From Bacteroidetes bacterium 4572_117 (lineage in GTDB: Bacteria; Bacteroidota; Bacteroidia; Bacteroidales; NBLH01), in NCBI GenBank assembly GCA_002084525.1, contig NBLH01000005.1, positions 1 to 33,867 of the forward strand: DNA of 33,867 nucleotides, given 5' to 3'. A program made the translations under genes and the position numbers. The notes below the pieces were generated by a model. The model was given only the letters and a program-made list of their open reading frames with translations, was not told the origin of the DNA and searched no databases. Below, in pieces: positions 2,234 to 25,372 of the stretch. Every line of letters begins with the position of its first letter. Positions within the stretch are counted from its first letter, which is position 1.

Positions 2234-4411
2234 ATGAAAGGTTATACATATATAAGCATTATTTTAACATTTTTGTTTAATTTAAACATTAATGGCCAGC
2301 AAAACCAAACCGATAGCTTAATTACAGCTGCCCTAAAAATGCAGGACGATACAAATAAAATAAATGCATTAAATGATATTGTTTGGAAAATAAAGACAAC
2401 AGATATTGAATCTGCAAAAAGTTTGGGTGAACAAAGCATTGCTTTAGCAGAGGGATTAAATTTCAAAAAAGGTTCAGCTTATGCCAATAAAAACCTTGGG
2501 GTAGTTTATTATTACCAAGGCGATTATGATAAGGCTAAAGAGCTGTATGATATTAGCTTAGAGGCATTTAAAGTAATAGAAGATAAAAAAGGTATTGCCA
2601 TTATGTTACGAAACATTGGTAACATTTACGATCAGGAAGGGAATACAAAAGTAGCTTTAGATTATTTCCTTAAAAGTTTGGCCTTACGCGAAGAAATTGG
2701 CGACAAAAAAGGTGTTGCAGCAGTTAATGCAGCTATTGGCCTTGTTTACGATAAATCGGATGAAAAAGAGCAAGCATTAGGTTATTTTGATAAGGCACTA
2801 AAAAGTTATACCGATTTAAATAACCAGAAAGGTATTGCAAAAATGAATTTTTATTTGGCCAATACATTTTATAATAAATTCCAAGATAACAAAGATACTG
2901 ACCTACCCGACTCTAATAGCTTAAATAAAGCTGAACACAACTTAATTGAAGCACAATCTATTTTTGAAGAAATAAACGATACAAGATATATTGCAAGCAT
3001 ATACGAAATGCTGGGTTTAGTATATATGGACAAAAATTTATCTAAAATATCATTATCATACCTAAACAAAAGCCTTGAATTAAGAATTAAAATGGGTAAT
3101 AAATTTGGGATGGCAAACGGATACATTAATTTAGGTAATTACTACAAAGACAAAAATGTAAAAAAAGCACTAAAACACTATCAAAAAGCATTGGATTTAT
3201 CTATTGAAATTAATGCCAACGGAACAAGGAGAAATGCATACAGTGGGCTTGCAGTTTCTTATTTTCAATTAAAAAAAACTAGCAAGGCATATACAAACTT
3301 GTTAAATTTCATTAATCTGAAAGACAGCCTCCAGAATGAAGATAACACAAAGAAAATGACCCAGTTGGCTATGCAGTACGATTTTGATAAAAAAGAAAAA
3401 TTACAAGAAGCCGAACAGCAAAAAAAGGATGCAATACAGAAAGAACGCCTAAAACAGCAACAAATGATTACTTCTTTTTTTGTTGTCGGGTTTTTGCTTA
3501 TGTTGGTACTTGCATTTTTCATTTATAAAAGTTACCGTACCAAACAAAAAACGAATATATTACTCGAAGAAAAAAATCAGACTTTACAACGGCAAAAAGA
3601 TAAAATTGCTGAACAAAATAAAAACATTACCGATAGTATAAAATATGCACAGCGCATACAGAGTGCTTTACTGCCGCCAAACGAGTTTTTTCAAGAAAAA
3701 TTAATTGATTATTTTATCATTTATCGCCCACGGGATATAGTTAGCGGCGATTTTTACTGGGCAACTGAAAAACATGGTAAAATTATACTTGGAGCAGCTG
3801 ATTGTACAGGGCATGGCGTTCCAGGTGCGTTTATGAGCATGTTGGGTATTTCTTTCCTAAACGAAATTGTAAACAAATACAATCCTGACGAAGGCAAACC
3901 TATGCGTGCCAATATAGTTTTAAATTATTTGAGGCATGCGGTAAAAACTTCGCTGCGCCAAACCGGGGAAGATGACGAAGCAAAAGATGGGATGGATATG
4001 GCTTTGGTAATTATTGACAAAGAGAACAACAAGGTTCAATATGCCGGGGCACATAACCCTTTATTTTTATTACGTAATGGCGAACTGATTAAGTATAAGG
4101 CAGATAGCATGCCAGTAGGTATTTATATCCGTGAAAAAGAATCATTTACCAACCATGAAATTGATGTTCAAGAGGGAGATACTATTTATATGTTTTCTGA
4201 TGGGTATGTTGATCAATTTGGTGGTAAAAACGGGAAAAAATATATGATTTCAAGATTACGAAAATTAATACTTGCCAACTACACCAAACCAATGGGCGAA
4301 CAAAAGGAAATTTTTGAAACAGAATTAGACAACTGGATAAACTACCCTAACCCAACAGACGAACAATATCAACAAATTGATGATATACTGTTTATTGGTT
4401 TTAGGATATAA
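2234..4411 (+). CDS. TPR-repeat protein with transmembrane segment and C-terminal SpoIIE/PP2C-type phosphatase domain
   Basis: N-terminal TPRs (GDYDKAKELYDISLEAFKVI...), TM segment MITSFFVVGFLLMLVLAFFIY, then IYRPRDIVSGDFYWATEKHGKIILGAADCTGHGVPGAFMSMLG, typical SpoIIE phosphatase. Confidence 0.93.
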   Translation: MKGYTYISIILTFLFNLNINGQQNQTDSLITAALKMQDDTNKINALNDIVWKIKTTDIESAKSLGEQSIALAEGLNFKKGSAYANKNLGVVYYYQGDYDKAKELYDISLEAFKVIEDKKGIAIMLRNIGNIYDQEGNTKVALDYFLKSLALREEIGDKKGVAAVNAAIGLVYDKSDEKEQALGYFDKALKSYTDLNNQKGIAKMNFYLANTFYNKFQDNKDTDLPDSNSLNKAEHNLIEAQSIFEEINDTRYIASIYEMLGLVYMDKNLSKISLSYLNKSLELRIKMGNKFGMANGYINLGNYYKDKNVKKALKHYQKALDLSIEINANGTRRNAYSGLAVSYFQLKKTSKAYTNLLNFINLKDSLQNEDNTKKMTQLAMQYDFDKKEKLQEAEQQKKDAIQKERLKQQQMITSFFVVGFLLMLVLAFFIYKSYRTKQKTNILLEEKNQTLQRQKDKIAEQNKNITDSIKYAQRIQSALLPPNEFFQEKLIDYFIIYRPRDIVSGDFYWATEKHGKIILGAADCTGHGVPGAFMSMLGISFLNEIVNKYNPDEGKPMRANIVLNYLRHAVKTSLRQTGEDDEAKDGMDMALVIIDKENNKVQYAGAHNPLFLLRNGELIKYKADSMPVGIYIREKESFTNHEIDVQEGDTIYMFSDGYVDQFGGKNGKKYMISRLRKLILANYTKPMGEQKEIFETELDNWINYPNPTDEQYQQIDDILFIGFRI

Positions 4412-7029: not shown

Positions 7030-8388
7030 ATGAGAAAAAGAAAGGAGAGTGTTAGGATGTCAGAAAATGAATGTTGCCCTAATCTGGAGAAACAGCCCAT
7101 CTGTGACTCGTTAAGATTTCGTTACCAATTACCATTCTTTCCCATTATTAAAGGGATGAAAAGTGGTATTCCTGTGGATGTCATATTGTATTTTGAACTT
7201 GTACGTTGCTCTGGGCCACTGGTTATTGGTGATCCGATTTATTCAATAACTCTTTTGCCGGGTGAACGTGTAAAATTATTTACAAGCGACCGGCACACAA
7301 AATGGTCATACGATAGTGAATCAAAGCTTTCATATCGACATCAAACAACATCTGAGGAATCATACTTTGCTGCTGGTATGGCAGAGGCAATAAGTAATTT
7401 AACCATCAATGAAAGCGGATCTAGTCAGTCTTCATACGAAGACTCATGGGCTGAAGGCGGAGGCGGTGCAAGCTTTTCATTTCTTGGGTTGATAAAAGTG
7501 GGTGGGGGCGGCAGTGGAGGTTCTTACGATTCAGAATCTGCATCTAGCTTCAGCCATAGCTTATCACGGCATGCAGAATCTGCTTCGAGATATGTGGCAG
7601 CAAGTGTCAGGGCTAAAAGCACAACCTCAATTGGTGAAGTTGAACAAAGGCAACATGCTGAGGGTGAGACAGAAGCCCACTATGAATCTGCTTCAAGAGT
7701 ATTTAGCAATCCCAACAAATGTAGGGCAGTTACCTATTTATTCCATAAAATCAATAAGGTTCAGAATGTCCATTTTAAATTAGTAGCAGTTGAAAGAAGG
7801 GTGGCAGACCCAAAAGCACCAACTGGGGCCTATCAGCGTACACCTGTAGATACAACAGGCAGGCTTTCTGTAAAACCTGAAATTATATCTGCTGCAAGCA
7901 AAGAACGACTAGAAAAAGAGGCAATTGCCCGCACCAGTGCATCGGAGCGTCAACAATTGACAACATCAGCTATTAGTTTACAGCAAGCAGGCCTTTTGGC
8001 GGCAGCATCCTATAAAACTGCCCAAACAGTATTTGAACGTGGATATCCAACTTATGATAAAGACACGCGTAAAGCTGCTATTGAAGCAGTAGACAGAGAA
8101 CTTATTAGTGACGGGATATTAGATGAAAAAACACGTGAACCCTCTGATCGGTTTGTGAAATCCTTGTTTTGGGAAAGAAAAGAAATTCTACCAACGCCAG
8201 GTGTCATTGTTAAAGGTTGCCTTGATGAATGTGCTACATGCGAACCTAGCCTGATAAAGGAAATTAAATTAGATTTAAAGCGCAAAAAGCTTGAAAATGA
8301 TTTACTTAAACGACAGATTGAATTATTGGATAAATCAAATGAATACAATTGTTATGAAGATGAACCTACATTTGATAATGAGCTTTAA
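7030..8388 (+). CDS. Uncharacterised protein with conserved-looking LLPGERVKLFTSD motif and Ser/Gly-rich centre
   Basis: 452-aa ORF with good RBS; start may be 7057 (second RBS+ATG, MSENECCPN). No recognised named domain. Confidence 0.85.
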   Translation: MRKRKESVRMSENECCPNLEKQPICDSLRFRYQLPFFPIIKGMKSGIPVDVILYFELVRCSGPLVIGDPIYSITLLPGERVKLFTSDRHTKWSYDSESKLSYRHQTTSEESYFAAGMAEAISNLTINESGSSQSSYEDSWAEGGGGASFSFLGLIKVGGGGSGGSYDSESASSFSHSLSRHAESASRYVAASVRAKSTTSIGEVEQRQHAEGETEAHYESASRVFSNPNKCRAVTYLFHKINKVQNVHFKLVAVERRVADPKAPTGAYQRTPVDTTGRLSVKPEIISAASKERLEKEAIARTSASERQQLTTSAISLQQAGLLAAASYKTAQTVFERGYPTYDKDTRKAAIEAVDRELISDGILDEKTREPSDRFVKSLFWERKEILPTPGVIVKGCLDECATCEPSLIKEIKLDLKRKKLENDLLKRQIELLDKSNEYNCYEDEPTFDNEL

Positions 8389-13399: not shown

Positions 13400-13548
13400 T
13401 TATTAGTCGATAATCAAAAACAATTGGCATGTGCCCTATCAAATAATTACTGGATTGGGTTGAGTATTAAATACAGTGTAAAAATCAGTTTTTAAACTTA
13501 TAACCTGATAAAACCAATTATTTGTTAAGTTTCACAAGGTTGTTCTTA

Positions 13549-13804
13549 CGTGACGAAGTTTCGTTTACAAATCATGAAATTGATATTCAAAAAGAAGATA
13601 GGTTTTATATTTTTACCAATGGGTATATTGATCAATTTGGCGGTTCAAATGCCAGAAAATTTTAAACCAAAATTTTCTGGATTTACTTCTGTCTACTCAA
13701 AACACAACCCTAGCTGAACAAAAACAAATACTTGATGAAACCTTTGATAATTGGAAAGGCAACTTGATGATGTGTTGGTGATAGGGATGAGATGGGGTGA
13801 TTAA
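13549..13804 (+). pseudogene. Remnant of the C-terminal end of a SpoIIE-type phosphatase
   Basis: RDEVSFTNHEIDIQKEDRFYIFTNGYIDQFGGSNARKF...LAEQKQILDETFDNWKG...QLDDVLVIGMRWGD* across several frames, paralogous to the C-terminus of 2234-4411 (REKESFTNHEIDVQEGDTIYMFSDGYVDQFGGKNGKKY). Confidence 0.88.
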
Positions 13805-14184
13805 AACCAAGATGTTTGTGTTTTTTTCTTCGTTGTAGTTTCTAAAGTACCAAAAGATAGGCATCATCAATAGCAAAGGGTAAAGCCCTTTGTTGTGTGT
13901 AATCTCCATACTGAAAAATTCTATTGAATATTATAGCTAACGACAAATATACAATAAATATAGACACCTGAAAAAGTGTTAATAACTCGTTTTAAAAAGC
14001 AAAGACCTTAAAGCCTTAACCACCTGAAATTAAAATATTTACAATTTTAATTATATGTAATTCAACTGGCATTAATAAGTAGCTCATATTTTTAGGAATA
14101 AAACTGATAGATAAAATGTTTAAATAATAAAATTTTGTACTTTTGAAGAGAATTTCATGTTTCACAAAATGAAAAATTAAAGAA

Positions 14185-15645
14185 ATGAAAATTGAAATAG
14201 AAAATTTAGGCCCGATAAAACAATTTGAATTTGATATAGAAAAGGACTTTCACATTATTTATGGTGAAAATAATATCGGAAAATCTTATGCAATAAATAC
14301 TATATACATATTACTAAAATATTTAGTTGTTGAACCTATTAATTTAAGTAAATTAATATCTCGACACCTTTTAGACCAAGAAAAATTGCCAGAAATTGAA
14401 GATTTAAATGATATTGTTAATGCTAAATTGACGGATGAAAAATATCGAGAGTTTACTATAACAAAAAAATGCGAAGAAATATTAAAAAAAGGAATCGAAG
14501 CTGAATATGTTACTTCAATATCAAAAAGTTTTAAGAATTCGTTTTCGAGTTTTTACAATATGCGAAATAAACTGAGTAACAAACAGCTTGTTTTAAAAAT
14601 TTTACTGCGTAATTTTAACTTGATTATAAAATTATCAAAAAATAATGAATTATACTTAGATGAATTACAGCTAAAAAAACGAATTACTGTTCGATTTATA
14701 GATACAAATAGAAACGTCAAAATAGAAGAAGATAAGATTATTTTATATATAAAAAAGTCTGAGTTTGGCTTGGAAAATTTTCAAAAAGAAATACTTTTTG
14801 TTGTACATCACGAAATGGAAAATTCTATCAGAAGTCTAAAAAACAGTATTAGTGATATTTACTTCTTTCCTGCATCTCGTTCCGGCTTGTATCAGGCAAT
14901 GAATATTTTTAGTTCTGTTTTTGCAGAACTATCAAAAGTAAGACATATTGTAAATAGTCAAATAAGTATTCCGGCACTCTCAGAACCCGTATCTGACTAT
15001 TTTTTAAAACTTTCGACAATAAAAATAAATACAACTTCCGACAAATATGCGAAAATAGCAAAGGAAATGGAAAAAAACCTTTTAAATGGCGAAGTAGTAT
15101 TCAATAAAGAAACAAAAAAGATTGAATATGTGGAAAAAAAGACAAAACTACGATTAGATTTATCAGAAACATCTTCAATGGTATCTGAAATATCACCCAT
15201 TGTTGCATATCTGAAATATGTAATAAATGAGATTCAGATTAAAGATGATAGTTCAGACGCATACAACTTAATATGGGGCTCGGAAGAAGGTTTAGAATAT
15301 AATAATTCAAAAAAACTTATTTTTATTGAAGAACCGGAAGCACACCTGCACCCCAAAATACAGATAAAATTGATTGAATATTTTTCGAAATTGATAAATA
15401 ATAATATAAAAATTGTACTTACAACGCATAGTGATTTTATATCTAACAAATTAACTAACCTTATCTTGTCTGAAGACTTGAGTTTTGAAAAAATATCAAG
15501 TTGTCATTTAATAATGACCAAGGAAGGAAGTATTGATAAAGGTGATATGCAAGCAACCCAAGAGGGTATTGATGACTATAATTTTCTGGGGGTTTCAGAA
15601 GAGTTATATGAAGAAAGAATGAAGTTATCTAATCCAGAAAACTAA
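14185..15645 (+). CDS. AAA/ABC-type ATPase (AAA_15/OLD-like, no TOPRIM visible)
   Basis: Walker A IIYGENNIGKSYAINTIY, Walker B LIFIEEPEAHLHPKIQIKLIEYF, H-motif IVLTTHSDFISNKL. Confidence 0.9.
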   Translation: MKIEIENLGPIKQFEFDIEKDFHIIYGENNIGKSYAINTIYILLKYLVVEPINLSKLISRHLLDQEKLPEIEDLNDIVNAKLTDEKYREFTITKKCEEILKKGIEAEYVTSISKSFKNSFSSFYNMRNKLSNKQLVLKILLRNFNLIIKLSKNNELYLDELQLKKRITVRFIDTNRNVKIEEDKIILYIKKSEFGLENFQKEILFVVHHEMENSIRSLKNSISDIYFFPASRSGLYQAMNIFSSVFAELSKVRHIVNSQISIPALSEPVSDYFLKLSTIKINTTSDKYAKIAKEMEKNLLNGEVVFNKETKKIEYVEKKTKLRLDLSETSSMVSEISPIVAYLKYVINEIQIKDDSSDAYNLIWGSEEGLEYNNSKKLIFIEEPEAHLHPKIQIKLIEYFSKLINNNIKIVLTTHSDFISNKLTNLILSEDLSFEKISSCHLIMTKEGSIDKGDMQATQEGIDDYNFLGVSEELYEERMKLSNPEN

Positions 15646-15650
15646 AAAAC

Positions 15651-16160
15651 ATGATTTTAAACACAATACGAAATCATCAAATATTGTCCAATTATATAGA
15701 AGAAAAATGTGATGAAGAAGGTGTGTGCGTTGAAATAGATAGTCGCATCCCAAAGAATAATTACGTCATTATTAAAGTAGATAATTATTATAACAGTTTG
15801 AATATTGCTGAACGACCTGCTTCACCTGATTGTTTGATTATTTTGGAATGCCAAAACTCAGGTTACGCCATGTACATTGTCGAATTAAAAAGCATTCATT
15901 CTTCAAGTGGATTTGAAATAAAAAATATGGACGAAAAGTTTAAAACATGCCTATATGATTTCATTAGCAATAAGTTCAGCGATGTATTAGAAATTGAATA
16001 CAAACGAATAACATTATATTTTGTCAGCAAAATTGAAATATATAGACGCGACATGGGATTAAAACTAAAAGTTTTACAAAATAAAAGATATAAGTATCAT
16101 GATAAAAAATGTTTTATTGAACCCTTAATGCCAGTTCCTGCAATTAAACCTTGTTATTGA
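15651..16160 (+). CDS. Small protein with PD-(D/E)xK nuclease-like motif, partner of upstream ATPase
   Basis: Starts 5 nt after the ATPase stop; SPDCLIILECQNSGYAMYIVELKSI fits PD-x(n)-ExK, followed by a predicted helix and beta strand (NMDEKFKTCLYDFISNKFSDV, YKRITLYFVSK). Confidence 0.75.
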   Translation: MILNTIRNHQILSNYIEEKCDEEGVCVEIDSRIPKNNYVIIKVDNYYNSLNIAERPASPDCLIILECQNSGYAMYIVELKSIHSSSGFEIKNMDEKFKTCLYDFISNKFSDVLEIEYKRITLYFVSKIEIYRRDMGLKLKVLQNKRYKYHDKKCFIEPLMPVPAIKPCY

Positions 16161-16303: not shown

Positions 16304-16642
16304 TTATGATAAATCTATCCCATCTTCAATTTCTTTAACCGAATTATCGCACGCAACAATAAAGCGATCTAAAAAATCTTTGTAAAGGTGGATATCTTGT
16401 TCTTTTTGGCAAAGAATTTCGAGTTGTTGCAGATTATTAGCCTCATCTTGCATGCCTACAATTTGAAAAGAGTTTTTTGCTTTATGGGCAACTTCCCCAA
16501 GTTCACCCCAGTTTTTTTCATCAAATGCCTTTTGTAAGCCTAATTTTTGTACTTGTATCTGTGATTTATACATTTCTAAAAGTGCTGTGATCATAGTAAC
16601 GTCATTATCTGTGTTGACTTTTAGATAGTTTAAATTAATCAT
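16304..16642 (-). CDS. Stand-alone histidine phosphotransfer (HPt) domain protein
   Basis: LGEVAHKAKNSFQIVGMQDEANNLQQLEILCQ resembles the HPt AHxxKxx phosphorylation helix; overlaps the upstream hybrid kinase by 8 nt. Confidence 0.82.
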   Translation of the reverse strand: MINLNYLKVNTDNDVTMITALLEMYKSQIQVQKLGLQKAFDEKNWGELGEVAHKAKNSFQIVGMQDEANNLQQLEILCQKEQDIHLYKDFLDRFIVACDNSVKEIEDGIDLS

Positions 16643-18515
16643 TATCCGTGTTTTTTGTTTTTTTCGTCAAATATAATACTTTTGAAATTAAATCTTCCCT
16701 TTCGAATGGTTTTATTAGGTAATCGTTCATACCAACATTAAAGCATCTATTTATTTCATCTATTGTTGCTGCCGCTGTTACGGCTATAATAGGGATGTTT
16801 TTTATTTTGTTGCTACCATCTGCCCTAATTTTTGTAGCTAAGCCATATCCATCCATTTCGGGCATATGTAAATCGCATAAAACTATGTCAAAGTCCGAAT
16901 TCGACAGCTTTTTTAAGGCATCAAGGCCATTTATTGCTGTTTCAACTTTAAATTTGCCTTTTTTTAATACTGATATTGTAAACATCAGGTTCATCGGATT
17001 ATCATCAACCAAAAGAATATTTATATCCGACATTGCATTAAGAGCATCATTATCTATAACTTGAGGAACTATAATTTTTGAATACGGGATATTAAAAATA
17101 AATGTGCTGCCTTTTCCTTTTTCACTTTCAATCCTTATTTTGCCGCCTTGTAATTCAATCAATTGTTTGGTTATTGCAAGCCCTAAACCTGTTCCCCCGT
17201 ATTTTCGTGTTGTCCCGTTGTTCTCTTGGGTAAAACTCTCAAAAATAGCGTCTTGCTTCTCTTTTTCTATTCCAATACCTGTATCTTTTATTCTAAATTC
17301 AAGATCAATAATTAACTCGTTCTCAAATATTTTTTTCACATAAACTTCAATGCTTCCTTGTGGGGTAAATTTTAAAGCATTACCAACCAAATTAATAAAA
17401 ATCTGGTTTAACCTATAATCATCTCCTATAACAATTTGAGGTATATTGTCATTAATATCAGAGCTGAAATCCAGATTCTTCCTTTGAAATTCATAATGCA
17501 TTGAGTTATACAATCGCTCTATTGACTGGCGAATATTAAATTTCTTTTTCTCAAACTGTAGCTTTTTGCTGCCCAATTTCGAAAATTCCAGCAAATCGTT
17601 AATAACAGATAATAAATGGTCCGACGACAGTTTAATGTTCTTTAAAAATTGTTTTTGTTCATCATTAAGCGGTGTTTCATCTAAAAGGCTTGTAATACCT
17701 ACAATTGAACTAAGCGGGGTTCTTAGTTCATGGGTTGTATTTGCCAAAAAACGTTCCTTAGCTTTTAGCGAGACTTCAGCCATTTGCTTTGACCGTTTAA
17801 GCTCATTATTTTGTTTTTCAATTTGCTCAAGCATTTCGTTAAATCCAGTGCTCAAACTACCAATTTCATCCTTTGAATTATTAACAGACCTAACAGAAAA
17901 ATCTTTTGTCGATGAAATTTTATTCATTAATTTATGTAAATGAAATATGTGCTGTGTAATTATTTTTTGAAAAAAGTAGGCTAATATAAATGCAATAATT
18001 ACAGTTAATACAAGTATAATGGCAATTACCTTAAAATAATTATCCTGTTTTACTTTTAATTCATCCAAATTATATTTAATTCGGATATATGCGGTAGTGT
18101 CATTCTTGAAAATAACAGGAATATTTGCGATAATGTTTTCCGCTAAAAATAAAACCGTGTCTGTTTTGAGCGGAAGTGGGTAATTCATCTCACTAGCAAC
18201 GCCGTTTTTATCATAGCTGACAAAAATACTCGAATCAGGTAATATTATGCTTGCTTTTTCTACAGATTTTTCAACCTTTAGGGTTGACATGTACTCTTTG
18301 GCTGATTTTTTATCGTTGAATAAAATCGTTGCTGAATTGCTATCGCCTATTACTTTCGAAAGTATTAACAGTTTTTCTGATATCTCCCTGTTATATATTT
18401 TCTTGTCGGTTCTATAATATATAACAGATGCAATGATAGTGTTTATTATACTAATAACGACAATTAGGAAAATAATTTTTGTCCTTATAGAAAGGTCTTT
18501 TATTTTTTGCATCAA
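16635..18515 (-). CDS. Hybrid sensor histidine kinase/response regulator (HAMP, HisKA, HATPase_c, REC)
   Basis: FLANTTHELRTPLSSIVGITSLLDE (H-box), DTGIGIEKEKQDAIFESFTQENNGTTRKYGGTGLGLAITKQLIELQGGKI (N/G boxes), ILLVDDNPMN...FDIVLCDLHMPEMDGY...PIIAVTAAA (REC). Confidence 0.96.
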   Translation of the reverse strand: MMQKIKDLSIRTKIIFLIVVISIINTIIASVIYYRTDKKIYNREISEKLLILSKVIGDSNSATILFNDKKSAKEYMSTLKVEKSVEKASIILPDSSIFVSYDKNGVASEMNYPLPLKTDTVLFLAENIIANIPVIFKNDTTAYIRIKYNLDELKVKQDNYFKVIAIILVLTVIIAFILAYFFQKIITQHIFHLHKLMNKISSTKDFSVRSVNNSKDEIGSLSTGFNEMLEQIEKQNNELKRSKQMAEVSLKAKERFLANTTHELRTPLSSIVGITSLLDETPLNDEQKQFLKNIKLSSDHLLSVINDLLEFSKLGSKKLQFEKKKFNIRQSIERLYNSMHYEFQRKNLDFSSDINDNIPQIVIGDDYRLNQIFINLVGNALKFTPQGSIEVYVKKIFENELIIDLEFRIKDTGIGIEKEKQDAIFESFTQENNGTTRKYGGTGLGLAITKQLIELQGGKIRIESEKGKGSTFIFNIPYSKIIVPQVIDNDALNAMSDINILLVDDNPMNLMFTISVLKKGKFKVETAINGLDALKKLSNSDFDIVLCDLHMPEMDGYGLATKIRADGSNKIKNIPIIAVTAAATIDEINRCFNVGMNDYLIKPFEREDLISKVLYLTKKTKNTDND

Positions 18516-18649
18516 TTATTTAAACTATGGTTTGCTAATAGAACGAAGTTTTTTGAAATAAATTTTTAATCTCTTTTTTATAATTATTTTTTCATGTAAA
18601 AAGAATTACAAAACCGAACATAATCACTTAACCTACTTTGACTTACAGG

Positions 18650-19126
18650 TTAAATAATAGTCGCTAAATCAAGCAATCCGGAACTTATTTCCAATTTTGC
18701 AAAACTCAGGGCACTTTGGCTTATTTCAAACCCCAAGTTTGGTACATCACCTGTAATATTTATCATACCACCCGACTCGCAAAAATGCGGGATATTGTCG
18801 CCAATTGTTAATACATGCTTGTTTTTAAAATGCCTGATTAAGCTCGCTGTTTGTTGTGTATTACTACCTGTGGTAAAAATTAAATGGCAGCCCTGTATTT
18901 CATTCGTGTTTTTATATAAATCAACTTCCCAAGCACGTCCATTTATTTTTTTCCCACTTAGGGTTTCTATTAAGGCCAATTCTATCGATTTATCGCCAAA
19001 AACACCTATCCTGAAAGGCGCTTCATCAGAACCAAAAGCATCTATAGGCCAGCTAACAAATTTAGTGACATTGAATATATACGATGATTTTATAACTTCC
19101 GGACTATTCTTTTTCATGTTAAACAC
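18650..19126 (-). CDS. YfiR-family (DUF4154) protein, no visible signal peptide
   Basis: IKSSYIFNVTKFVSWPIDAF...FRIGVFGDKSIELALIETLSGKKINGRAWEV...CHLIFTTGS...VLTIGDNIPHFCESGGMINI. Probable ATG start at 19117. Confidence 0.85.
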   Translation of the reverse strand: MFNMKKNSPEVIKSSYIFNVTKFVSWPIDAFGSDEAPFRIGVFGDKSIELALIETLSGKKINGRAWEVDLYKNTNEIQGCHLIFTTGSNTQQTASLIRHFKNKHVLTIGDNIPHFCESGGMINITGDVPNLGFEISQSALSFAKLEISSGLLDLATII

Positions 19127-19134
19127 ATCAATGT

Positions 19135-19662
19135 TTATAAAATTTTCGCTAAAGTTAATAATTTTGAGCTAATTTCAATGTCTCTATCCTGAATTTCCTG
19201 ATAGTTTATTTCAATTTCTTTTTTCCCATATATATTTTTAATGTTTATCATACCTCCGTTTATACAGAAATCATCAATATTATCGGCAATTGTTAAAATA
19301 TTTTTAATTTTTGAGATTTTAATAATATCATCTGTTCTTAATTTTTGTTCATTAGTGATAAAAACTATCGACCCATTTACTATTTTATTGTATTTTTTCC
19401 CTACTATAACTTGCCAATTTTTGTACTTAACAGTATTTTTTGTTTGAATCTCGTAATTAATTGCATGAGTTTCATCAGATATAACAAATATTAATTTTTC
19501 TGAATTATTATTATAAACCGTTTGCCAATTAATAAATTTTGAAAGATTGATTATAGTATTAATCTTTTCTAACTCTATTGATTTTTGTGCAGCAGAATTA
19601 ATTGATATATTGTGAATTATAAAAAATAAAAAAAAATTTAACACTAAATTTAAAGTCTTCAT
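19135..19662 (-). CDS. YfiR-family (DUF4154) protein with signal peptide
   Basis: N-terminal MKTLNLVLNFFLFFIIHNISINSAAQ; ILTIADNIDDFCINGGMINIKNI matches the YfiR C-terminal motif; 8 nt upstream of the second YfiR gene. Confidence 0.78.
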   Translation of the reverse strand: MKTLNLVLNFFLFFIIHNISINSAAQKSIELEKINTIINLSKFINWQTVYNNNSEKLIFVISDETHAINYEIQTKNTVKYKNWQVIVGKKYNKIVNGSIVFITNEQKLRTDDIIKISKIKNILTIADNIDDFCINGGMINIKNIYGKKEIEINYQEIQDRDIEISSKLLTLAKIL

Positions 19663-19902
19663 TTCAAGTATTGTTAGATTTTGGTTTATAAATATTCGGC
19701 TAAAGTATACAACACTTTACATAAAGACAAGAGAAAAAGTATTTTTTTTTGAAAAATTGTTTAATATTGTTAAAATTCCTTAAAAAAATGACTATAAACC
19801 GTGAATTACAATTATTAATAATACAATTGAAAAAAAATAAGCCCTAATTAATTATGCTTTTTTTGAGCAAGATTGCATAAAATATTTAAATTTGTAAACT
19901 AA

Positions 19903-19955
19903 GAGCTTGTTAAGAAATAACTTTTACATTATAAACATTATTCCTAAACAAGCCC
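19903..19955. repeat. Inverted repeat, 18-nt arms (GAGCTTGTTAAGAAATAA / TTATTCCTAAACAAGCCC)
   Basis: Arms match at 15 of 18 positions after reverse complement. Confidence 0.5.
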
Positions 19956-20055
19956 TATGGTAAAAAAAGGTAGATTGCATCAATAAAAAATACATGTAGT
20001 TAATACCAAATTTAAAAATGTTACGTTGCATTAATCGTAAAGCTTAAACAGAGTT

Positions 20056-20187
20056 TGTCTATAAAGTCCGACTTCTGCGTTGTTGCTCAAAATCTAAATC
20101 CTCAAATACAGTTAGTATTCTGCGGTTTAGACTTATCACACGCCTTGAACTCAAACTTTCTAGCCCAAACTCTCGACTTTATTGACA
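20056..20187. mobile_element. Candidate MITE-like element, about 132 bp with terminal inverted repeats
   Basis: TGTCTATAAAGTC (20056-20068) and GACTTTATTGACA (20175-20187): 12/13 inverted match; no ORF inside. Confidence 0.5.
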
Positions 20188-20268
20188 GATACTAAATAGA
20201 GTGTTTATAGTTTTAAATACCGTATGAAAATTTTTTAATATTAATATTACATAAAAAAATGCTTTGAT

Positions 20269-21324
20269 ATGAAGAAACTGATTTTATTTGTATCCCTTTC
20301 ATTTGTTTTCAATTTTGGTGCTTTTGCCCAAGTTGAAAAAACGGAAACACTGGTTGTTGATGATAATCAGGAAGCAGAACTTGCATATAACAAAGGTATT
20401 ACAAGTTTTCAAAAAAAAGATTACAAAAAAGCGATTACAGGGTTCACTTCTGCAATTGAAAATAAAAAAAGCTTTTATCAAGCTTACTACAACCGAGGTA
20501 GAGCTAAAAGCGAAATGAAAGACTATAAAGGGGCACTTGGTGATTTTAACAAGGCAATTGAACTTAAAAAAGACTATGCAAAGGCATATTTTGGAAGAGG
20601 CATTGCTAAAATATATGCTAAGGATACTACTAAAACAGCAGTATTGGATTTTAGCCAGGCTGCGGTTTTAGGTGAAAAAAACCCAAAACTATTCTATTAT
20701 AGGGGTATTGCAAAATTCCTTAACAAAAATTACCATGGGGCCTTGTCTGATTTTTCGCAAACAATAAAACTTGACACTTTAAATGCTTTTGCATACAATG
20801 AAAGAGGCAGTACAAAAAGGCAACTTAAAAGTTACAAAGCTGCGATTTCTGATTATTTAATGGCGCTAAAACTTGACCCAAAAATGCTAGTTGCCTACGT
20901 AAATATGGGAAGTGCAAAAAAAATGATGAAGGATTATGATGGGGCTGTGGCAGATTATAATACAGCAATAAAGCTAAAGCATGATTACTACATTGCGTAC
21001 AATAACAGGGGGTCGGTTAAATTTGAACAAGAAAAATATGACGAGGCCGAAAAGGATTTTAATAAAGTTATTAGTTTGGAACCCAAATACGCTTTTGCAT
21101 ACAACAACCTAGGCATGGTTTATATGAAACAAAATAAATATGATAAAGCTTTAACAAATTTCAATAAAGCAATTGAACTAAATGCTGATTTTGCCAAGGC
21201 TTTTGCTAACAGAGGAAGTACTAAAGAAATGTTGCTGGATTTTGAAGGGGCTTGTAGCGATTGGAAAAAAGCAGTCGAGCTGGGTATTGAAAATCCTAAA
21301 GAATTTTTAGAAGGATGCAAGTAA
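20269..21324 (+). CDS. Secreted TPR-repeat protein
   Basis: Signal peptide MKKLILFVSLSFVFNFGAFAQ and many TPRs (AYYNRGRAKSEMKDYKGALGDFNKAIELKKDYAKAYFGRG). Confidence 0.93.
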   Translation: MKKLILFVSLSFVFNFGAFAQVEKTETLVVDDNQEAELAYNKGITSFQKKDYKKAITGFTSAIENKKSFYQAYYNRGRAKSEMKDYKGALGDFNKAIELKKDYAKAYFGRGIAKIYAKDTTKTAVLDFSQAAVLGEKNPKLFYYRGIAKFLNKNYHGALSDFSQTIKLDTLNAFAYNERGSTKRQLKSYKAAISDYLMALKLDPKMLVAYVNMGSAKKMMKDYDGAVADYNTAIKLKHDYYIAYNNRGSVKFEQEKYDEAEKDFNKVISLEPKYAFAYNNLGMVYMKQNKYDKALTNFNKAIELNADFAKAFANRGSTKEMLLDFEGACSDWKKAVELGIENPKEFLEGCK

Positions 21325-21396
21325 TTTTGTTGTTATCACAAGCAAATAAATACAATAATAATTAAACACACATAATACGTATTAAAATAATAACCT

Positions 21397-23469
21397 ATGA
21401 ACTCAGTTAAGTTTATTATCGCCATAAGTTTTTTGACATTCATTTTCACTTTCTCTGTTGCCCAGGAAAGAGTCTATATCAAAAAAAAGGAATTTTTTAC
21501 TACAGACGAAGGGTTTAAAGAGGCTTGGAAAAATATTAAAAAAGGCAATTTTCTTTTTTACCAACACCGCCCGGCAAGTTATAAAGATGCAATCCCTTTT
21601 TATAAAGATGCCATTGCATATAACACTGAAAATGCAGAATTAAACCTGATATTGGCCATTTGTTACCTAAGGTCCGACCCAAAAGCCGAGGCTCTTAAAT
21701 ATATTCAAAAAGCAATTGACCAGAAAGAAGATGTTCATGAAAAGGCAAACTTTTTCCTTGCCAGGGCATTACACCATAATCTTGAGTTTGCTAAAGCTAT
21801 TGTTGAATACGATGCATACAAAGAGACCTTAAACGGAAAAAAACTAAAAGAACAATCACCTATTATTGATAAATATATCTCTGAGTGTGAATCCGGAAAA
21901 ATTTTAAAGAAAAAAACAGCAAGGATAATTATCAACAACCTTGGCCCACAAATTAATTCAGCTTTTGATGATTATGGTGCCGTATTATCCTCTGATGGGT
22001 TACGTTTGGTTTTTACTTCACGCAGGGGTGAAAAAGGCGACAGGATAAACCCGATGGATGACAAATATTTTGAAGATATTTACACCTCAGATTTCGTTGA
22101 TAGTGGATGGAAAGAGGCTGAGAACATTGGCAAACCTGTAAATACCGACTGGAATGATGCCGCTGTTGATTTTCTTGATGAAAAAAACATGTTGATTTTT
22201 TATAGAGGCCGTGAACGTGGTGGCGATTTATATACCACATTGTATAAAAAAGGCAAATGGAAAAACATTAACAGCATATCCAATAAAGTAAATTCAAAAA
22301 AATCAAAAGAGTCAGCTATTAGCTTCAACGCAGATGGTACCACTATGTATTTTGTAAGCAATATGGATGACGATAGTTTCGGTGGCAAGGATATATATTA
22401 CTGTATTTTAGACGATAAAGGTAAAAAATGGTCAAAACCCATAAATATTGGGGATGATATTAATTCAGAATTTGATGAAGAATCTGTATTTATCAGCCCG
22501 GATGAAAAAACCATTTACTTTAGTTCAAAAGGGCATAACACAATGGGGGGCTATGATATTTTTATTTCTGAATATAAATACGATTCATGGACAACACCAG
22601 TAAATTTAGGGCTGCCGATTAATACTGCCGACGATGACCTTTTTATGACAATATTACCAAATGCACGCGATGCATACTTTTCGGCAATAAGAAAAGAAGG
22701 CTTTGGCAGTTTTGATATTTACCATGCAACAATATTAGGCCCCGAAAAACCTTTGTTACTGACAAACGAGGATGAATTGCTTGCCGGTATCGCTACCCCG
22801 ATAGAAGAGTCGTTTATTGAAGAATCGATGAAAATTAGCTACACCAGGATGACAATTGTTAAAGGTAGCGTTACTGATTTTAATACAGGGACCCCATTAG
22901 CATCAACAATAGAACTGGTTGATAATGCAACCGGTAAACTAATCAAAAAAACAACATCGAACAAAAACACAGGTTCGTACCTTATAAGTTTGCCATCGGG
23001 TAAAGATTATGGGTTTTCGGCCAATACCGATGGTTACATGTTCCATTCAGAGAATTTTGTTGTGCCTGAAGCACAGGACTATAAAGAAATATTTAAAGAC
23101 ATTAAATTACAACCGATAACACCGGGGTCAAAAATTATTTTACATAATACTTTCTTTGAAACAGCTAAATCGACACTAAGGACAGAGTCTTTTTCTGAAT
23201 TGAACAGGTTGGCAAAAATGTTTGAAAAATCCCCTAACTTAGTTATTGAAATTTCGGGACATACAGATAGCCGGGGATCAAGATCTGCAAATCAGCGTTT
23301 ATCGGTTGCTAGGGCAAAATCAGTGGTCGATTATCTTAAAGCCCAAGGTGTTAAAGCTGCAAACCTTAAGGCGGTAGGTTATAATTTCAAGTTTCCTGTG
23401 GCATCAAATAAAACAAAAGAAGGCCGCCAAAAAAACAGGAGGGTCGAGGCTAAGGTTTTAAGCAATTAA
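21397..23469 (+). CDS. OmpA-family protein with TPR, PD40 propeller and carboxypeptidase-regulatory-like domains (PorE-like architecture)
   Basis: Repeats such as DDYGAVLSSDGLRLVFTSRR, FNADGTTMYFVSNMDDDSFGGKDIY, FISPDEKTIYFSSKGHNTMGGYDIF; VKGSVTDFNTGTPLASTIELVD; OmpA motif VIEISGHTDSRGSRSANQRLSVARAKSVVDYLKAQGV...GRQKNRRVE. Confidence 0.94.
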   Translation: MNSVKFIIAISFLTFIFTFSVAQERVYIKKKEFFTTDEGFKEAWKNIKKGNFLFYQHRPASYKDAIPFYKDAIAYNTENAELNLILAICYLRSDPKAEALKYIQKAIDQKEDVHEKANFFLARALHHNLEFAKAIVEYDAYKETLNGKKLKEQSPIIDKYISECESGKILKKKTARIIINNLGPQINSAFDDYGAVLSSDGLRLVFTSRRGEKGDRINPMDDKYFEDIYTSDFVDSGWKEAENIGKPVNTDWNDAAVDFLDEKNMLIFYRGRERGGDLYTTLYKKGKWKNINSISNKVNSKKSKESAISFNADGTTMYFVSNMDDDSFGGKDIYYCILDDKGKKWSKPINIGDDINSEFDEESVFISPDEKTIYFSSKGHNTMGGYDIFISEYKYDSWTTPVNLGLPINTADDDLFMTILPNARDAYFSAIRKEGFGSFDIYHATILGPEKPLLLTNEDELLAGIATPIEESFIEESMKISYTRMTIVKGSVTDFNTGTPLASTIELVDNATGKLIKKTTSNKNTGSYLISLPSGKDYGFSANTDGYMFHSENFVVPEAQDYKEIFKDIKLQPITPGSKIILHNTFFETAKSTLRTESFSELNRLAKMFEKSPNLVIEISGHTDSRGSRSANQRLSVARAKSVVDYLKAQGVKAANLKAVGYNFKFPVASNKTKEGRQKNRRVEAKVLSN

Positions 23470-24668: not shown

Positions 24669-25372
24669 TCACCAGCCGATCAAATTGCCTTTTACTGTGG
24701 TATTTACTTGTTTTTCAACATCAAATGTAAAAATATTTTCGGGTTTTGATAAACGTACAAGCATAACTTCTTGTATTTTACTGAAACCTTTTTTCCCATT
24801 CCTGAATATTGTACCAGTGCAAAATTATTACCATACCCATCAGCATTCCAATTGCCCCAAAACTTTATACCATCTTCGCGCCTGCCGTTATCAAGCTCCT
24901 GCATCCTTATAGCTTCGTGCCTTTCTTTTGATAAAACATGTGGTTTGTTCCCATACATCAGGTTTAAGCTTTCAATAAACACCGAATACGACGAACCGCT
25001 ACAATAACTGGTTTTGCGGGGTGCCTGTAACAATTTATTGCCAAAAAGTTCAATATTATATCCTATTGGCGACTCAGGCGGGTCGGCCTTTATGCCAATA
25101 AAATATCCGCCGCCATCCATTGCAGAAGATTGTACCAAATCAATAGCCCTAAGAACATAAACATTATATCCGGAAACATATTTCCCAAACAATTTTGCAT
25201 GTTGGGTATGATAATTTCCATTCAACAAATCTTCTTTTTTAAGGATAAGCCTTGTCCCATCATCTTTTGTAACAGCTAAATTTTCATTATCTGTTTTTTG
25301 GTTTTCGCAAGCAAATATTACAAGTAAAAATAACATAAATACAAGTTTTGACCTATTAATTGTTTTATTCAT
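24669..25372 (-). CDS. Putative lipoprotein of unknown function with a frameshift at A AAA AAG (24788-24794); 0-frame product ends at 24704, -1 frame product at 24669
   Basis: MNKTINRSKLVFMLFLLVIFACENQKTD lipobox-like N-terminus. The -1 frame continues GFSKIQEVMLVRLSKPENIFTFDVEKQVNTTVKGNLIGW*, more protein-like than the 0-frame tail. Confidence 0.7.

Follow-up and report, generated by a model that had tools for sequence, protein, structure and literature searches.

WonAB, a two-gene system from a Vibrio cholerae WASA-1 prophage, is the best-studied relative of the operon described herein (PMC12137116). WonAB requires both of its genes as well as the active-site lysine of WonB, which is predicted to dock on the C-terminal extensions of WonA; its toxicity depends on the presence of WonA, translation being blocked with the DNA left intact, and the infection is aborted (PMC12137116). 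The authors regarded WonAB as part of a larger, uncharacterised family in which ABC-ATPase sensors are paired with nucleases (PMC12137116). PD-T4-4 of Escherichia coli (Vassallo 2022) and the PADLOC candidate PDC-M47 are likewise composed of an AAA_15 ATPase followed by a small protein. In the PARIS (AriAB), Gabija and OLD systems, the ATPase head likewise belongs to the OLD/ABC class and the effector is a TOPRIM nuclease, and the partner of PtuA in Septu and the retron PtuAB systems is PtuB, a nuclease of the HNH type (9n69 entry title; PMC10952713).

The pair of genes considered here lies in a 33,867-nucleotide stretch of Bacteroidota DNA, termed the window. The sequence-only reading had interpreted it as an ATPase sensor with a nuclease effector, which is now supported by a predicted nuclease-like fold and by constant pairing, and had sought its nearest relatives among OLD, Gabija, PARIS and retrons, a place that is taken instead by WonAB, PD-T4-4 and PDC-M47. 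The two genes are probably an anti-phage operon of the same kind as WonAB and PD-T4-4.

The ATPase gene and its surroundings

Both open reading frames of that reading were recovered at the positions and with the motifs that it had quoted, the second beginning 5 nt after the first (Table 1). The ATPase harbors Walker A (GENNIGKS, residues 27-34), the segment LIFIEEPEAHLHP at residues 378-390, comprising Walker B (378-383) with the catalytic glutamate E383, and TTHSDF at 413-418, which includes the H-loop residue H415; PASRSGLY is located at 229-236 and a signature-like TSSM at 329-332. The complete set expected of an OLD/ABC-type ATPase, namely Walker A, a signature-like SS motif, Walker B with its catalytic Glu and the H-loop, is thus present, and these elements are invariant or near-invariant among 27 ATPases. 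The protein matches Pfam AAA_15 over the cut-off (8e-23), together with the PADLOC models AriA (6e-25), PDC-M47A (1e-24) and PD-T4-4_A (6e-24); the latter two matches are unspecific, as the AriA and GajA models also match via the common ATPase core. An AlphaFold2 model (pLDDT 82) retrieved with Foldseek, as its best matches, PtuA of retron/Septu complexes (1e-8 to 1e-11), followed by Rad50/SMC heads.

Table 1. Positions of the features in the window and of selected cassette loci in other Bacteroidota
Feature	Location	Strand	Basis
SpoIIE-type phosphatase 3' remnant, neighbour outside the module	13540..13795	+	tblastn 1e-15
Candidate Bacteroidota-type -7 element TACTTTTG	14138..14145	+	pattern match; 39 nt before ATPase start
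OLD/ABC-type ATPase, 486 aa	14185..15645	+	AAA_15, AriA/PDC-M47A/PD-T4-4_A matches, AF2 + Foldseek
Small PD-(D/E)xK-like predicted nuclease effector, 169 aa	15651..16160	+	AF2, Foldseek, 27-sequence alignment
Cassette between rnfB- and rnfC-like genes	L015:3151-7382		translations
Cassette between surA-like and moxR-like gene	L016:5205-9757		translations
Cassette adjoining 2Fe-2S ferredoxin gene	L020:5501-8833		translations
Cassette just upstream of ispG	L022:5750-10369		translations
Cassette after asnS	L018		translations

Conservation, expressed as the mean frequency of the commonest residue per region among the 27 ATPases, amounts to 0.60-0.67 in the main catalytic segments and 0.52 in a C-terminal extension (residues 432-486, GIxDxNF...LYEER), and to just 0.28-0.29 in a variable insert at about residues 49-225. 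Most of this insert is missing from two natural ATPases, 350 and 364 aa long (loci L018 and L026). Such a pattern in the alignment would suit a conserved core, made up of engine and effector dock, that carries a variable arm for sensing, and the short-insert ATPases provide a handle on which part senses the phage.

The consensus of the Bacteroidota -7 element is TAnnTTTG, and the candidate TACTTTTG upstream of the ATPase gene is by itself weak evidence, since the pattern has 34 matches on the same strand of the window. The G+C content of the pair is 27-29%, compared with 33% for the window, and that of one neighbouring gene is lower still. The decayed SpoIIE gene that had been proposed on the upstream side was verified as its last ~90 codons, broken over three frames and recognised by comparison with the genome's own SpoIIE proteins; an intact SpoIIE gene is situated at 2234-4411 of the window. 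The flanking signalling cluster was confirmed as well, with genes for Hpt, a hybrid histidine kinase (CHASE8) and two YfiR-like proteins at 16304-23469, divergent from TPR and OmpA genes. This gene order is retained in two same-genus genomes (L073, L074), which suggests that the cluster is one signalling unit. The second YfiR-like gene (19135-19662) has a G+C content of just 21%, against 33% for the window, and two window ORFs, at 7030-8388 (452 aa) and 24704-25372 (222 aa), have no Pfam match at E 0.1. The further proposal of an insertion hot spot drew weak backing from the neighbour beyond Hpt, which varies in each of three same-genus genomes, but none from integrases or tRNAs, of which none was seen at the site in the window among the part of the ORFs scanned.

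A predicted nuclease behind the ATPase

In Pfam, NCBIfam, PADLOC and PHROGs, no match of the small protein reaches the threshold. A sub-threshold match to Herpes_UL24 (0.015) falls exactly over its PD...ELK stretch, and another family member has a sub-threshold TnsA-like N-terminal match (0.002); UL24 and TnsA both adopt PD-(D/E)xK folds. It was modelled by AlphaFold2 from a 19-sequence alignment with pLDDT 93 and pTM 0.90. Each Foldseek match to the PDB is weak (best E 0.013, TM-scores about 0.3), and the top rows are mostly PD-(D/E)xK nucleases, including EcoO109I, N.BspD6I, Card1, BstEII, MspJI, HamA, FokI and Bse634I, while the viral library returned UL24, VRR-NUC and Mrr-like proteins. 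In the model, D60 begins strand 61-66 and E78-x-K80 ends the neighbouring strand 72-80, which is followed by helix 90-108 bearing K96 and F104. The model therefore has an alpha-beta core in which D and E-x-K stand at the ends of adjacent strands, the arrangement by which PD-(D/E)xK enzymes are recognised, as the sequence-only reading had anticipated from SPDCLIIL...YIVELK (residues 58-80), and the protein is accordingly a predicted nuclease with a PD-(D/E)xK-like fold.

The proposed motif D60...E78-x-K80 is unchanged in 27/27 sequences. D44, K96 and F104 are equally invariant throughout this set, which covers Bacteroidota and proteobacterial prophages, and most other positions vary; at L027, a contig-edge locus outside the set, R occupies the K80 position. 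A cysteine-based metal site was ruled out as a family feature, the cysteines being lineage-specific and mostly absent from the phage-borne relatives. A chance ORF was likewise ruled out by relatives of 31-61% identity behind the same ATPase in many genomes. The protein had been described as an unusually small effector, a view that does not hold, as its size is ordinary for the kind: related partners have 137-211 aa, and WonB is 16.1 kDa (PMC12137116).

These folds also bear on an alternative in which the pair is a direct restriction system: ends or structures of phage DNA would be recognised by the ATPase, and the nuclease would degrade the DNA and spare the cell. PD-(D/E)xK enzymes are mostly DNases, the nearest fold matches of the effector are restriction enzymes and Card1, and the Rad50/SMC-type ABC ATPases that are fold neighbours of the ATPase bind DNA. 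Nevertheless, WonAB spares DNA and blocks translation (PMC12137116), and no DNA-binding or modification gene is regularly found near the pair, so that we consider restriction of this type a possible but somewhat doubtful explanation.

Pairing, distribution and genomic setting

It had been asked of the ATPase homologues that they co-occur with the small gene, and every ATPase of the clade with contig left downstream has it. In the window's order, 393 genomes yielded 9 clade ATPases that scored below 1e-112, with the next-best ATPases at just 1e-37; the small gene stands behind each of the nine that has downstream sequence, the ninth (G035) stopping at a contig edge. In the GTDB set, the ATPase is directly upstream of the small gene in 17/18 loci, and the remaining locus is cut by the contig end. 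Six viral contigs possess the full ATPase (32-36% identity) with the small gene, and an ATPase match was obtained in 8/5426 complete E. coli genomes, the same pair being present in 2/2 that were opened. The gaps between the two genes range from -20 to +14 nt across loci. Moreover, the phylogenies of the ATPase and the effector are congruent (Mantel r 0.79, p 0.0001, n=27). The ATPase and the small protein are a co-evolving, horizontally distributed unit.

The distribution of this unit is patchy. It is present in about 2% of the genomes of the window's order, and within the window's genus the ATPase occurs in 1/7 species, with a decayed copy left in a second. The latter (L077, 2653-3963 and 4671-4763) retains the final 31 codons of the effector gene, with an apparent group II intron reverse transcriptase gene some 700 bp away. 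The E. coli pair (L174:8305-10391) is inserted between icd and intE, at the integrase edge of an icd-integrated prophage, a site that we take to be the position of e14. It corresponds to WP_024246526.1 and WP_024246527.1, annotated merely as an AAA family ATPase and a hypothetical protein, on which no literature was found. The pair adjoins an integrase in the viral contigs L100 and L102 and lies inside P2-like tail regions in L099 and L103, as read from the translations. Prophages thus carry the pair at typical defence-cargo positions. No effector relatives were found on plasmids or deposited phages, and the literature search returned no phage assay for any member of the clade.

The overlapping or near-overlapping genes, the patchy distribution and the occurrence in prophages would also suit a toxin-antitoxin pair or a module for maintaining mobile elements, with the ATPase doing no more than holding a toxic nuclease in check. 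The cargo position at a prophage edge, beside the integrase, speaks against this explanation, such placement being typical of phage-exclusion genes. Furthermore, the toxicity of WonAB needs the ATPase, which argues against simple sequestration (PMC12137116) and leaves either form of module unlikely.

The Bacteroidota copies are mostly bare two-gene cassettes, co-directional with core genes and separated from them by less than 100 nt in many cases (Table 1); the names of the neighbouring genes are readings of the translations rather than results of a family search. The neighbourhood of the pair differs in nearly every Bacteroidota locus. No integrase was noticed in the cassette loci L015, L016, L020 and L022, and no conserved junction motif or target duplication was apparent by eye at the cassette borders in 19 loci, nor in the window. 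In L022 and L031, the effector stop runs into the start of the core gene that follows. A 60-nt direct repeat, 98% identical, flanks the cassette on the 3.7 kb contig of L014 (1434-1493 and 3652-3711); it is exclusive to this locus and may represent a mobile border or an assembly effect. In L078, the pair adjoins a DNA methyltransferase-like gene and an apparent BamHI/BglII-type restriction enzyme, the latter read from its translation. A defence-island setting in Bacteroidota was rejected for most copies, with mostly core-gene neighbours and few that resemble defence ATPases (L014, L021, L025), a point that weighs against the anti-phage reading.

The many co-directional copies inside core gene clusters, with their short gaps, could be taken as a sign of a housekeeping regulator or repair pair devoid of any phage role. 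This is very improbable for genes that occur in so small a share of the order's genomes and in a different neighbourhood at nearly every locus, and that have decayed in a same-genus genome and are carried by a prophage in E. coli. Because the ATPase and the small predicted nuclease accompany each other in bacteria that are far apart, E. coli prophages among them, the pair is very probably devoted to virus defence, as a system of a kind recognised only recently.

Proposed mechanism and relation to known systems

In the anti-phage operon that we favour, a dimer of the ATPase would bind and hold the nuclease via the conserved C-terminal extension, and would sense infection via the fast-evolving insert. 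A phage cue would then cause the ATPase to let the nuclease cut nucleic acid. The docking and sensing roles are assigned by analogy. By analogy with WonAB, the outcome would most likely, if by a narrow margin, be abortive infection via translation shut-off, with tRNA or rRNA cleaved; DNA restriction as the outcome instead is a substantial possibility.

It is conceivable, at somewhat short of an even chance, that the clade constitutes a distinct, as yet unnamed family within the ATPase plus small PD-(D/E)xK kind, which is spread over Bacteroidota and proteobacterial prophages, has an effector missed by current defence models, and travels as a bare cassette between co-directional core genes. If this is true, cassettes in core clusters, such as the rnf cluster or the position before ispG, may use core transcription and need no island. 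The clade, whose catalytic residues are established from 27 sequences, adds to the little-known ATPase-sensor/nuclease-effector systems, and its E. coli member is immediately testable in laboratory strains.

Concerning the described systems, Septu and the retron PtuAB share with the window pair the combination of an ATPase and a small nuclease, PtuA being a fold neighbour of the window ATPase. PtuB and the PD-(D/E)xK-like effector differ in fold, and identity with these systems was ruled out, the partner having no HNH match. Identity with OLD, Gabija or PARIS was also ruled out by the absence of TOPRIM from both window proteins in Pfam, NCBIfam and PADLOC, as the sequence-only reading had held for the ATPase.

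WonAB is similar to the window pair in its ATPase-first two-gene operon, with an OLD-type ABC ATPase lacking TOPRIM and then a small PD-(D/E)xK variant nuclease, and similar to the clade in being prophage cargo. Both ATPases have a C-terminal extension, which in WonA is the proposed effector dock. The spacing from Walker B to the H-loop is alike (E300/H333 in WonA, E383/H415 in the window ATPase), and the catalytic lysines are K71 in WonB and K80 in the window effector. By published residue positions, Walker A and Walker B lie some 85 residues closer together in WonA, and these spacings suggest that WonA is the shorter protein. The wonAB primer sequences had no match in the viral contigs. The 'OLD-ABC ATPase + novel REase' operons of Krishnan et al. 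2020, as far as they are described in PMC12137116, resemble the window pair in layout and fold classes, and that set, on the same description, may well include this clade.

PD-T4-4 and PDC-M47 share the order of the window pair, and their effectors bear a (C/A)DY...ELK motif alignable with that of the window effector family. The window effector itself has no match to the PD-T4-4_B or PDC-M47B models, and only two of its relatives touch them (L026, PDC-M47B 1e-5; L098, 0.004). Behind each of the next-nearest ATPases stands a protein of 137-211 aa with (C/A)DY...ELK, matched by both models, and hhalign profiles of the two effector families align over the motif and the next helix (E 1e-4, probability 55%). 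The clade ATPases stand apart from those of PD-T4-4 and PDC-M47 with branch support 100/100, some end branches being long, and identity between the two groups is mostly 25-35%, over partial stretches only. Because the effector families align and the next-nearest ATPases have (C/A)DY...ELK partners, the clade is, as judged from sequence, a member of the ATPase plus small restriction-fold nuclease kind, well separated from PD-T4-4 and PDC-M47.
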